Assembly: GCA_948444795.1 (NCBI GenBank)
Contig: CAOJUX010000001.1
Coordinates: forward strand, 1-57,827
Direction: 5' to 3'
Length of the DNA stretch: 57,827 nt
DNA from: an uncultured Erysipelotrichaceae bacterium
GTDB lineage: Bacteria; Bacillota_I; Bacilli_A; RF39; UBA660
Part shown: positions 21,302 to 37,538 of the stretch, piece after piece
Layout of the letters: each line of letters opens with the position of its first letter
Position numbering within the stretch: the stretch's first letter is position 1
Made by a program: the position numbers and the translations under genes
Notes under the pieces: generated by a model
Databases searched by the model: none
Seen by the model: only the letters and a program-made list of their open reading frames with translations
Told to the model about the DNA's origin: nothing

Positions 21302-22534
21302 TTATTTAAATATTCCAATATATTGTTTCTTTTTACCTTTTTTTACTAAAATCACTTTATTATCTATAGCAAGTTCTTTATTTATAATTAAATTTTCATC
21401 ATCTATTTTTTTATTATTTATTGAAATAGCATTATTTTTCAAAAATTCTCTAGCTTCTCTTTTACTAGTACAAATATTATGATTTACTAAAAAATCAACT
21501 ATGTTTTCTTCTTTTTTTATATCAATAGTAGGAACACCATTAAAACTTGCTAAAATATCATTAGCTTTTAATTCATTTATTTTTTCAGTAAATAAACATT
21601 CACTGATATATAAAGCTTTTTCATATTCTTCCCTACCATGAAGGAAGGTTATTACTTCACAAGCTAAGGCTTTTTGAGCTATTCTATCTTCAGGTTTTGT
21701 TTGATGATTCTTTAAAATCTCTTCGATTTTATCTTTTTCTAAGAATGTATATCTTTTTAAATAATCTTCCATCATTACATCATCAAAGTTAAGCATGTAT
21801 TGATATAGTTCATAACTTGAAGTTTTATTTTTATCAAGCCATAAAGCATTTCCATATGATTTTCCTAGTTTTATACCATCTTTATCAGTAGTCAAAGGCA
21901 TAGAAAAGGCATATACTTCTTCACCATTTAATTTCCTTATAAGTTCTATACCAGTAGTTAAATTCCCCCATTGATCGGAACCACCAAATTGAAGATTCAC
22001 TCCATAGTCTTCATGCAAACGTTTAAAATCGTAGCCTTGTATTAACATATAAGAAAATTCAGCATAAGAAATACCTATTTCCATTTGTCTTTTTACTAGA
22101 TCTTTATTTATCATATAATTTACATTTATGTATTTACCAATATCTCTTAAAAAGTCAATATAATTCATATTTTTGAACCAATCATAATTATTGACAATTT
22201 TAATGTCTTTACCAAATAAATATTCCATTTGAGCTTTTATTTTAACAAAGTTTTGTTCAATAATGTTTTCATCTGCTTTTTCTCTTTCACCTGTTCCTCT
22301 TGGATCTCCTACTCTTCCTGTTGCTCCACCTACTAAAACCATAGGATGATGTCCTGCTCTTTTTAATCTTTCAATCATTAAAAATGTTGGTAATTGTCCT
22401 ATGTGAAGACTTTCGGCGGTTGGATCTGCTCCAATGTAAAAGGTCATACCTCCTTTATTTATTTTTTCTTCTAAATCAGGACTTGTTACATCTTTAATAA
22501 GTCCTCTCCACATTAAATCTTCATAAACTGTCAT
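21302..22534 (-). CDS. tyrS: Tyrosyl-tRNA synthetase
   Basis: 410 residues, usual size. Class I motifs: HIGQLPTF (HIGH) and KLGKSYGN (KMSKS-type). The tyrosine pocket (GADPTAESLHIG, GGSDQWGN) is present and a C-terminal S4-type RNA-binding domain occupies about 340-405. It is expressed with the CYTH gene (ATGA overlap) under a tyrosine T-box leader (23092-23293), so transcription should rise when tRNA-Tyr is uncharged. Confidence 0.97.
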   Translation of the reverse strand: MTVYEDLMWRGLIKDVTSPDLEEKINKGGMTFYIGADPTAESLHIGQLPTFLMIERLKRAGHHPMVLVGGATGRVGDPRGTGEREKADENIIEQNFVKIKAQMEYLFGKDIKIVNNYDWFKNMNYIDFLRDIGKYINVNYMINKDLVKRQMEIGISYAEFSYMLIQGYDFKRLHEDYGVNLQFGGSDQWGNLTTGIELIRKLNGEEVYAFSMPLTTDKDGIKLGKSYGNALWLDKNKTSSYELYQYMLNFDDVMMEDYLKRYTFLEKDKIEEILKNHQTKPEDRIAQKALACEVITFLHGREEYEKALYISECLFTEKINELKANDILASFNGVPTIDIKKEENIVDFLVNHNICTSKREAREFLKNNAISINNKKIDDENLIINKELAIDNKVILVKKGKKKQYIGIFK

Positions 22535-23076
22535 TTTCTTTCCTCCTCCAATTTAAGTTCTTTTATTTCATCTAAGTTATAGCCATAATCTTCATAGATT
22601 GTTTGAACATCTTTAGTAGTAGTATCTTCATTATTATATCCTAAAAGTTTAACTATGTTATATACTTCATTAACTGTTTTACCCTCTATTTCAATATAGT
22701 CTGGAATAAACGGCCATGAATCTATATCAATTTCTACATTGTTTAGATAATATCTACGTCTTTTATTTTCTTGATAGGCTTTTTTTTGATATCCTAATTC
22801 ATTTAATATTAAATTAGTTTTATTAAAATCATTAACTTTTATTTCTAATTCTTCTGTACCATCTACTTTATCTGATTTTATATTTTTAATAGTTAAAGTT
22901 GAATCTAAGCCATCAGTACGTAATCTAATCCATTTTTTCTTTTCAACCTCATTAAAATCATATACATATCTTTGTTGTAATCTTTCCCACTTAAATTCTG
23001 CATTTAATTTTTCTAATTTTTTTATTATTTCTTCTTTGTTAATATTTAATATCCTCAGTTCTATTTCAATATTCAT
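22531..23076 (-). CDS. CYTH-domain protein (triphosphate tunnel family)
   Basis: 181 residues. The N-terminal EIELR matches the ExExK/R signature of CYTH proteins, followed by RLRTDGLDSTLTIK and a late VEIDSWPFIPDYIEIEG block typical of class IV adenylate cyclase-like or thiamine-triphosphatase-like members. CYTH enzymes bind triphosphates inside a tunnel of charged residues. It is the first gene under the tyrosine T-box and overlaps tyrS by ATGA, an unusual pairing. The substrate cannot be predicted. Confidence 0.85.
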   Translation of the reverse strand: MNIEIELRILNINKEEIIKKLEKLNAEFKWERLQQRYVYDFNEVEKKKWIRLRTDGLDSTLTIKNIKSDKVDGTEELEIKVNDFNKTNLILNELGYQKKAYQENKRRRYYLNNVEIDIDSWPFIPDYIEIEGKTVNEVYNIVKLLGYNNEDTTTKDVQTIYEDYGYNLDEIKELKLEEERK

Positions 23077-23091: not shown

Positions 23092-23293
23092 AATATAAAA
23101 AACTCATAAATATAAGGACGAGATATTCCCCGCGGTACCACCTTATTTTATGAGTTACATACACTTTAAACTATATAGCGTTACCCTTTAAACTCCAAAT
23201 ATGTATCTTCATTATTAATAACCATTTGTTTACACCAGCCACAAACTCTCTTTTACGTCAATTAATAACTACTATTATTCTTCTTCGTTTTAT
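23092..23293 (-). promoter_or_regulatory. Tyrosine T-box riboswitch leader
   Basis: On the minus strand the T-box core AAGGTGGTACCGCG (23131-23144) sits in an antiterminator. The alternative terminator pairs AACTCATAAA-type arms around it and ends in a T-run (23092-23103). Upstream is an AGAGAGTTTGTGG Stem I element. The likely specifier is TAC (23203-23205) within GATACAT, i.e. a Tyr codon followed by A, agreeing with tyrS downstream. Confidence 0.93.
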
Positions 23294-23299
23294 ATACCA

Positions 23300-23328
23300 A
23301 TAATATCATGTTAAAATATTTTTGTAAA
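23300..23328 (-). promoter_or_regulatory. Promoter of the T-box operon
   Basis: Minus strand TTTACA (23323-23328), 17-nt spacer, TATTAT (23300-23305). It begins directly after the stop of the 99-residue gene. Confidence 0.7.
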
Positions 23329-23628
23329 TTATATTTTTAAAGTTTTTGCTAATTTATCATCTTCTTGCTTTTGTAAAGTTTCTTGCATTCTTTCAACTTC
23401 AGCTGAAGCTAATTGTTTTTGTTCAGTTATTTTAGATTTCAAAAAAATCGCAATTAAATAAAATAAGAAATACATATCTTTTATAGTCCCATTATCCTTT
23501 TGACTATAAGCAAAACAATATTGTTCCAAAAAATATATAATTAAACTTATATCTAATAAATTTACTTCTTTAGCAAATCTTAATAAGTCTTTGGCTTTTT
23601 TTAATTCTTCATTTTTGATTTTTAGCAT
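23329..23628 (-). CDS. Small helical hypothetical protein
   Basis: 99 residues, helical, with a hydrophobic middle (LLDISLIIYFLEQYCF and YFLFYLIAIFL, possibly one or two membrane-associated helices) between charged ends; the C-terminus (AEVERMQETLQKQEDDK) could form a coiled coil. I recognise no family. Its promoter (23661-23689) and leader are clearly related to those of the 23715-24959 gene, so both are probably under the same control apart from the G-tract. No recognisable transport or enzyme motif. Confidence 0.65.
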   Translation of the reverse strand: MLKIKNEELKKAKDLLRFAKEVNLLDISLIIYFLEQYCFAYSQKDNGTIKDMYFLFYLIAIFLKSKITEQKQLASAEVERMQETLQKQEDDKLAKTLKI

Positions 23629-23660: not shown

Positions 23661-23689
23661 ATTATGCCTATTTTTAGTTTGTTTGTCAA
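23661..23689 (-). promoter_or_regulatory. Promoter of the 99-residue gene, sister of the poly-G promoter
   Basis: Minus strand TTGACA (23684-23689), 17-nt spacer, CATAAT (23661-23666). The bases following the -35 (AACAAACT) and after the -10 (ACC...TTGTAAAAAGAAAGAGGG) closely match the promoter at 24992-25023, where a G10 run replaces part of the spacer. Confidence 0.8.
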
Positions 23690-23714: not shown

Positions 23715-24959
23715 TTATCTATTTATAGTATGACTTATATTTTCGATTGGAACTCTATAAAAATTATTCTCTACGATGTTTTGATACTTACTAGCATTTT
23801 TACAAATATTCTCAATTTCATCTTTTGTCATATATTCTTTAAGTTCTATACCATTTAATAAAGCAAAGTCATGAAAACTAGTTAGTATTGTACTAGTACT
23901 TGATGTATCGCTTATATTAGCCATATCTATATCGTATATTGCTTCATCAGTATCTGGGTTTACATATTCTACTGTATTATATTTACTTACAGTTACTGAT
24001 ACTTTATCATTTAATATATCGCTATAAACGTAGTTATCCTCTCCAAATGTATAAGGACAGTTAAGTCTAATAAAATGGTAGATATCGCTAGTATTTCTTT
24101 TGTAAGATATATTACCTAATACATTAATTATAGCAATATCACTTGTTGGTATTAATTCAGTATCTTCATAATTCATTCTTCTTTTACTTACATCAGTTGC
24201 TATTTTTTGAATTTCAGCAAAAGTGTATGTAGGTTTTATTTGTGTATATTCATTTAAATTAGCTAAATAAAGATTTTTACTTTCTAATTTTATTAAAATA
24301 ATATTATTTAAGTTAAACGCAAGTACTTTATCATCTTGGTTTGTAATAATATTACATGTTCCTTGTTCATTTAAAACATTAAAACTTTCATAAATTTTGA
24401 TATCTCCATAGTTTGCCAATTGATAAAACATATACATTTGGTTTGGTATTTCATAAGCACTATTTTCTAAGTTATCAAATATTTTAATTTTTTCTTCTTT
24501 ATAATCATTTTCTTCTTGATTATTTTTTTTATATAATTCCTCTGCTGCATGTGATATAGTGCAACATAAAGAACTTTCTATTACAGAATTATATTCCTTT
24601 GTACATATATCAAATATATTTTCTAAAATATAATCACTTGTTGATGTTAATACCATATCTTTTAAAATACTTTTAGTAGTTTTATCAAAAGAAGATTTAC
24701 GTATATACTCTAAAAGTTCTGGTTTTGAGACTGTTTTTTTACTTGTTACTTCTTCTAAAGTTATGTCATTTAATACCTCTTTTGTTTCTTCTTGATCTGG
24801 TTTTTCAACATGAAGTTGTGTTGTTATTGGTGCAACTACATTACTTATCTTTGTATTATTTACTTGTTTAGTACCACAACCATTTAAGCTTACTGCTCCA
24901 GCTAGAATAGTAGCTGTTAATGCCTTTCTCATTTTAATTAAATTTTCTCTTTTTTCCAT
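23715..24959 (-). CDS. Putative lipoprotein behind a poly-G promoter
   Basis: 414 residues. After MEKRENLIKMRK a hydrophobic segment ends in AVSLNGC, a lipobox-like site (Asn at -2 is unusual). The rest is a soluble extracytoplasmic domain with few motifs; four cysteines cluster at about residues 115-140 (FDICTKEY, SSLCCTI) and elsewhere. I recognise no family. Expression should depend on the length of a G tract between the -35 and -10 (24992-25023), which now gives a 20-nt spacer and hence presumably weak transcription. It is probably a variably displayed surface lipoprotein; this is inferred. Confidence 0.75.
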   Translation of the reverse strand: MEKRENLIKMRKALTATILAGAVSLNGCGTKQVNNTKISNVVAPITTQLHVEKPDQEETKEVLNDITLEEVTSKKTVSKPELLEYIRKSSFDKTTKSILKDMVLTSTSDYILENIFDICTKEYNSVIESSLCCTISHAAEELYKKNNQEENDYKEEKIKIFDNLENSAYEIPNQMYMFYQLANYGDIKIYESFNVLNEQGTCNIITNQDDKVLAFNLNNIILIKLESKNLYLANLNEYTQIKPTYTFAEIQKIATDVSKRRMNYEDTELIPTSDIAIINVLGNISYKRNTSDIYHFIRLNCPYTFGEDNYVYSDILNDKVSVTVSKYNTVEYVNPDTDEAIYDIDMANISDTSSTSTILTSFHDFALLNGIELKEYMTKDEIENICKNASKYQNIVENNFYRVPIENISHTINR

Positions 24960-24991
24960 AAAAATTTCCCTCTTTCTTTTTACAAATTGGT

Positions 24992-25023
24992 ATTATAACC
25001 CCCCCCCCAGTTTATTTTGTCAA
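24992..25023 (-). promoter_or_regulatory. Candidate phase-variable promoter with G10 spacer tract
   Basis: Minus strand TTGACA (25018-25023) and TATAAT (24992-24997) flank a 20-nt spacer containing ten consecutive G. Optimal sigma-A spacing is 17, so loss of three G would restore it. Both hexamers are perfect consensus, unlike the sister promoter at 23661-23689. Confidence 0.85.
24999..25008. repeat. Homopolymer tract C10 (G10 on minus strand)
   Basis: Ten consecutive C on the plus strand, one of only two such runs seen in this AT-rich window. It lies between promoter elements. Confidence 0.95.
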
Positions 25024-36382: not shown

Positions 36383-37538
36383 TTATTCGATAGATAAAAT
36401 GTAAGGGTCAGCTTTGGTACCTATGCCAGAAGATGTTTTTATTTGGTATTTTAAATATATACAACCTCGCGCTAACCAATTAGCAGCTGCTCCATAGCTA
36501 GAATTATCATATAAATTGCCATTTACAAGAGGAGAAAATACTCGGTTTTCAAAAGAAGAACTTGCTGTAATTAACCATTGAATGTCATTAATTTGTAACC
36601 AATTATTATTGAAACATAAAGAATCATTATAATTATCTAAACTTTTCTTTAGACAATCTCCACTTGTGGCAAAGCCATAATCACTTGGATATGCTAAGGC
36701 TACTTTGCCTATCCAATTTTTAGGATTAGTTCCATATACATTATTATTTCTTTCTCCTTGATAAAATTGTTCTGCTACATATCTACTTCCATCTAGTCCT
36801 CCTAAATACCATTTGCTGTTCCCTATCATATTTTTAGCAGAATCATTTAAATTATTATAATATTCACCATTTAAGTATTTTTGTAGTGTTGCATTACTCC
36901 AATCATTTTTTCCATTTGTATCCCAGGCCATATTTCCAATTGATTCATTTTTTATCAATTTAACTCTCTCTTTAAATTCTCCAGTTCCATCATCAGTATT
37001 AAATATTCCTATTATTCGCCATAACTCATCATTAAATAAAACATAGTTATTTGGATCTTTTCCTATATATCTATAATCTATATTAGTATTTGCTCCTGTT
37101 TGAACAGTAGCTTCATGCGTAAATTTTACTAGTTCATTTGTCTCTTTTAATACTTCAATTAAATCTCTACTTGTATAACTTTCAAAACTTATAGTACATA
37201 TTGTGGGTTTGGTCGTTGATAGATTTACTTTCCAGTTTGATATTTCATCATCATATGTTACATCTACTGTTGCATCATTTGAGCATTCATATCCGACATA
37301 TTTATGACCATTTTTATCAGGAAAACTATCTTGTTTTACTCCATCCACTAGAACTGCTAAAGTTATATCTCCTTTGGTAAAGTTTGGCACTTTTCCTTCT
37401 AGTATATTAAATGTTTTACTTGTTTCAAATAATGCAAAACTTCTATATACTAAAATACCCCCCCCCCAGTACTAGGACTAGGGCCATTACGCTTAGGAGG
37501 GTGTATTTTAGTTTTTTATTCTTTTCAAATTTTTTCAT
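36383..37538 (-). CDS. Phase-variable surface protein, currently frameshifted at a G10 tract
   Basis: Translation begins at the ATG at 37538 (GGAGGAAG upstream) with KKFEKNKKLKYTLL and a membrane helix. A run of ten G (37458-37467) then puts the ribosome into a frame ending at TAG after YFSI. With nine G the helix reads on as GGGILVYRSFALFETSKTF and joins a 336-residue extracellular frame (KVPNFTKGDITL..., ending DPYILSIE). The mature part includes YRYIGKDPNNYVLFNDELWR and DYGFATSGDCLKKS, features of cell-surface proteins in related bacteria. In this assembly it is OFF. The frame change is certain from the sequence; switching is inferred. Confidence 0.85.
37458..37467. repeat. Homopolymer tract C10 in the coding region (G10 on coding strand)
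   Basis: Ten C on the plus strand, in codons for the membrane helix of the 36383-37538 protein. Nine (or six, twelve) would restore the full frame. Confidence 0.95.

Follow-up and report, generated by a model that had tools for sequence, protein, structure and literature searches.

Why should a promoter with two perfect hexamers hold them apart with a run of ten guanines? We examined this question in a 57,827-nt stretch of DNA (hereafter the window) from an uncultured Erysipelotrichaceae bacterium (assembly GCA_948444795.1, contig CAOJUX010000001.1, positions 1–57,827). The source genome comprises 1.46 Mb in 74 contigs and is about 81% complete. Read directly on the minus strand, the promoter consists of a consensus −35 element, TTGACA (25018–25023), a 20-nt spacer, AAATAAACTGGGGGGGGGGT (24998–25017), and a consensus −10 element, TATAAT (24992–24997); the G10 homopolymer, the proposed site of slippage, lies within the spacer at 24999–25008. 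This agrees with the preliminary description of the window, which had reported both hexamers as perfect and the spacer as 20 nt long owing to G10, and had proposed that the tract is an ON/OFF switch.

The promoter precedes a lipoprotein-like ORF of 414 aa (23715–24959, minus strand; ATG at 24959), for which inspection places a ribosome-binding site, AAAGAGGG (AGAGGG; 24968–24975, minus strand), 8 nt 5′ of the ATG. The N-terminus, MEKRENLIKMRKALTATILAGAVSLNGCG, is a lipoprotein-type signal peptide. No homologue of the ORF was found among 59 related genomes, a Pfam search assigned it to no significant family, and AlphaFold2 run without an alignment gave an unusable model (pLDDT 36). As the lipoprotein is an orphan among these 59 relatives, its own tract cannot be compared across species. 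A sister promoter without a tract lies at 23661–23689 (minus strand), ahead of a 99-aa ORF (23329–23628). Its description as a related promoter with a 17-nt spacer holds for TTGACA, for the spacer and for the leader, TTGTAAAAAGAAAGAGGG, which is nearly the same behind both promoters, but its −10 element is CATAAT, not TATAAT. Nearby, AAGGTGGTACCGCGGGG at about 23100–23330 (minus strand), upstream of the 22531–23076 ORF and tyrS, resembles a T-box leader, for which Rfam at the gathering threshold returned no match.

As had been supposed, the tract is not accounted for by chance: dinucleotide shuffling predicted 0.03 occurrences of G8 on either strand of the window, compared with six overlapping matches, which correspond to two G10 tracts. 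Tracts of G8 or more number 32 in the source genome; G10 is the greatest length, and 26 tracts have exactly this length. At least four of its further promoters carry poly-G spacers, making at least five with that of the window. Their spacers measure 17 nt (L032), 17 nt directly after mutS (L059), 20 nt (L047) and 15 nt 5′ of a type IV prepilin-like gene (L054). The prepilin gene has congeneric homologues without the tract; it was considered as an orthologue set for length variation and dropped, because tract-less homologues show turnover only. The window's poly-G promoter is one of many rather than an isolated case, a point that the preliminary description missed.

The design extends well beyond this genome. 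Across the family (193 genomes), matches to TTGAC-N-G8+-N-TANNAT numbered 492 and were spread over 56 genomes (overlapping choices of −10 element are counted), compared with three for the reversed pattern. With strict hexamers (TTGACA-N-G8+-N-TATAAT), 78 of 385 species genomes of the order yielded 346 matches and the reversed pattern none; 12 of 16 congeneric genomes were positive. The looser pattern was present in 45 of 296 genomes of the class, other families included, with no control matches, and in 19 of 245 genomes drawn from the phylum, with one control match. The maximum per genome reached about 30–48 matches. A narrow form of the pattern matched 21 stretches among 84,980 named species genomes. 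About half were labelled Bacilli, Tenericutes or Acholeplasmatales, these being mostly metagenome assemblies, often with rabbit, rumen or other gut in the label; a few came from Lachnospiraceae, Clostridia, Streptobacillus and other groups. Two families that appear to be Mycoplasma-like with small genomes (f4 and f15) had almost no matches, and 2.9 million viral contigs yielded eight.

Is the spacer length itself under constraint? In 446 kb of the source genome, ordinary promoters showed a sharp peak at 17 nt (35 sites, compared with about seven at other lengths), and the 20-nt spacer is off-optimum by this standard, as previously suggested. Across 114 distinct listed sites, the flank before the tract and the flank after it were negatively correlated (r = −0.82), and the variance of the total spacer was 5.2, compared with 24.5 when flanks were re-paired (observed value reached in 0 of 10,000 permutations), values that are indicative because related species are not independent. 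The constraint also held with one site per genome. The total −35/−10 distance of poly-G promoters was mostly 15–20 nt (mode, 19 nt), which, with 20 nt at the present locus, straddles the norm of 17 nt. The commonest poly-G spacer is 19 nt and not 17 nt, and most poly-G promoters are assembled at 18–19 nt, so that the ON length, and with it the optimum for a G-rich spacer, may differ from the 17-nt norm.

Tract length differs between promoters that can be compared. Eight same-genome sets of promoters had identical flanks and tracts of different lengths (e.g., G14–G16 in G682 and G9–G11 in G659), and tracts across the order ranged from G8 to G16. An ABC-transporter ATPase gene had orthologues in 14 congeneric species, 76–100% identical to the query; its promoter kept G9, G10 or G11, mostly G10, in seven of the 14, with diverged flanking bases, and lacked the tract in the other seven. 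That AT-rich genomes should keep the tract across so much divergence points to selection. The length differences thus come from same-flank copies and orthologues of other poly-G promoters, the window's lipoprotein having no orthologue. MutS (MutS_I) is present in the source genome and in 184 of the 193 family genomes, and we therefore reject the idea that slippage stems from a lost mismatch-repair system; with MutS present, slippage is probably not extreme.

We regard it as very probable, on comparative sequence grounds, that the G10 tract provides the variable element in a porA-type, slipped-strand phase-variable promoter that belongs to a lineage-wide set. The switch proposed in the preliminary description gains strong comparative support from the enrichment over the reversed pattern, the constrained spacer, the same-flank length differences and the retention of the tract in orthologues. 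During replication, slipped-strand mispairing would add or remove G residues, and each change in their number would alter the −35/−10 distance. To judge from the 17-nt norm, RNA polymerase would use the promoter well near 17–18 nt (G7–G8) and poorly at 20 nt, and the assembled G10 promoter is probably OFF or weak. The population would then be expected to be mixed, with the lipoprotein expressed by a minority of cells, and the locus would stand beside poly-G reading-frame switches of the same genome.

The alternative that survives best, improbable as we consider it, is that the G run is a fixed structural spacer, which through DNA twist or an A-like helix would set a constant, tuned promoter strength and in practice would not switch. 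The clustering of tracts at G10 in the source genome and at G9–G11 in orthologues suits this interpretation, as does the scarcity of poly-C, which slippage alone leaves unexplained; with 26 of the 32 tracts exactly G10 and the orthologues mostly G10, it could be argued that the length is fixed. However, a homopolymer is an unlikely means of holding a constant distance, and a constant distance is at odds both with same-flank copies of one genome that differ in length and with the G8–G16 range of the order. Moreover, the same genome has poly-G tracts within coding sequences, a position that makes sense for frame switching alone.

The second G10 tract of the window is of this intragenic kind. It lies at 37458–37467 (minus strand), 23 codons after the ATG (37538) of a secreted-protein gene (36383–37538, minus strand) that is split by the resulting frameshift. 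At G10, the frame is closed by a stop codon four codons past the tract; at G9 or G12 it is open, with 357 open codons at G9. About 20 similar copies or fragments of this secreted-protein family occur in the source genome, with the tract 22–23 codons in. In complete copies, G10 closes the frame and G9 opens it; one copy (L040, G9) is open, or ON, and the rest are OFF. The tract thus sits near the 5′ end of the ORF, and one length maintains the frame while neighbouring lengths truncate it. From these sequences, the 37458–37467 tract is predicted to switch the reading frame of a gene in this repeated secreted-protein family.

Two other observations concern intragenic tracts. In one family member (L056, 1501–1510, minus strand, contig 28 of G000), unrelated sequence stands upstream of the G-tract in place of the usual signal peptide, which gives the gene the look of a fusion at the tract, whether by recombination or as an assembly chimera. 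Tracts of G8–G10 also lie within other ORFs (L034, L042, L046, L033, L043, L051, L053 and L058), which include those for a Fic-domain protein, an SLT transglycosylase and an acyltransferase; as assembled, some of these tracts keep the frame and others are one G short.

The tract could instead be a regulator binding site or a G-quadruplex or R-loop element whose spacing is incidental, an explanation to which we assign very little probability. It would be in keeping with the strict placement of G on the non-template strand. Spacer tracts of the C version are nearly absent: replacing G8 with C8 gave a single match, in one of the 193 family genomes, so that poly-C spacers are essentially missing from the family. 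We found no explanation for this rule. The extended −10 position might benefit from a G, but the tract of many relatives abuts the −35 element instead. Against a binding site, which would be expected to stay put, the tract shifts freely relative to the −35 and −10 elements at a held total distance. In addition, a single G10 run cannot form an intramolecular quadruplex with normal loops.

An assembly or sequencing artefact is scarcely credible and largely refuted. Homopolymers are error-prone, and the contigs of many relatives stop no more than a few tens of bases from such promoters, but independent assemblies repeat the design, complete with flanking promoter elements and correctly placed ORFs, and reversed controls gave zero or near-zero matches. 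Exact tract lengths may nevertheless be off by one or two. The contig ends are an observation in their own right: in many relatives (L094, L103, L113, L118, L127, L205 and L210), the contig stops about 10–55 nt past the poly-G promoter, as though the assembly had been broken there by repeats or by variants in the population.

What would a phase-variable poly-G promoter of this kind control? ORFs start about 20–100 nt past the −10 element. A hydrophobic N-terminal segment was present in 53 of 65 genes behind poly-G promoters, compared with 68 of 327 background ORFs; the 65 genes were sampled mainly family-wide and are weighted towards multi-copy families. Family-wide targets are, by this measure, enriched for predicted exported proteins, and include prepilins, TasA/camelysin-like proteins, Ig-like surface proteins and membrane-anchored proteins with the phage-baseplate Gp10_C domain. 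In the window's own genus, about 10 of 24 targets look exported on inspection; among the others are ABC ATPases and uncharacterised cytoplasmic proteins. One genome (G176) encodes many membrane-anchored proteins, each behind a near-identical poly-G promoter (L093–L104); several end in a Gp10_C-like phage-baseplate domain (Pfam match for the L099 protein), and phase-variable display of phage-derived binding domains is possible there.

More broadly, random gain or loss of G residues probably turns many genes, frequently those for surface proteins, on and off in these related, uncultured, mostly gut-derived bacteria. We incline towards the view that an order-wide switchboard, routine, genome-wide and combinatorial, exists in mostly gut-derived Bacilli, in which many unlinked promoters each carry a separate G-tract. 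On this view, the tracts arose anew many times, invariably with G on the non-template strand, and operate beside poly-G frame switches in secreted-protein families that have expanded. If so, clonal diversity would be built into a large group of uncultured bacteria, most of them from the gut: each genome would have tens of promoters that switch stochastically and that often serve filaments, TasA-like proteins and surface proteins with phage-baseplate domains; this would bear on phage resistance, immune evasion and colonisation. The preference for G over C could, in turn, inform how RNA polymerase reads spacer DNA.

We compared the poly-G promoters with known systems. Searching the open-access literature, we found no description of the poly-G spacer design in this lineage. 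The mechanism of spacer-length switching is known, and it is the lineage and the scale that appear undescribed; the number of poly-G promoters per genome and the breadth of the lineage are the surprising part. In the opc and fetA promoters of Neisseria, poly-C spacers set the −35/−10 distance by their repeat number. The number of TA repeats does the same in the hif promoter of Haemophilus influenzae (PMC3899988). The present promoters share with these three the control of −35/−10 distance by repeat number, but differ in the repeat unit, poly-C being essentially absent from the spacers here.

The closest match in design is porA of Neisseria meningitidis, as the preliminary description had noted and a review confirms: poly-G lies between the −35 and −10 elements, transcript level tracks the number of G residues, and a single gain or loss matters (PMC3899988). 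As in porA, poly-G occupies the spacer of a surface-protein promoter. Unlike porA, which is one locus in a Gram-negative pathogen, the design here is found in Bacilli that are AT-rich and mostly gut-derived, where a single genome can have up to dozens of unrelated promoters of this kind; the tract lies at varied positions, and the non-template strand always carries G, not C.

Among commensals, the nearest precedent that we found is Bifidobacterium breve, a high-GC actinobacterium. In the pilus switch of B. breve UCC2003, tracts of G9–G12 showed measured length heterogeneity and selection in mice, and the authors mention additional G-tracts in promoter spacers (PMC9187656). This gut commensal's studied tracts are intragenic and switch the reading frame, which places them nearer to the window's tract at 37458–37467 than to its promoter. 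The mycoplasmas, reduced and AT-rich relatives that switch surface lipoproteins, offer another likeness. The vlp genes of Mycoplasma hyorhinis encode phase-variable lipoproteins and have poly-A near the promoter. The phase-variable vpma lipoproteins of M. agalactiae are reported to switch by DNA inversion (PMC2268961). The mycoplasma systems thus use poly-A or DNA inversion, in contrast to the poly-G spacers described here.
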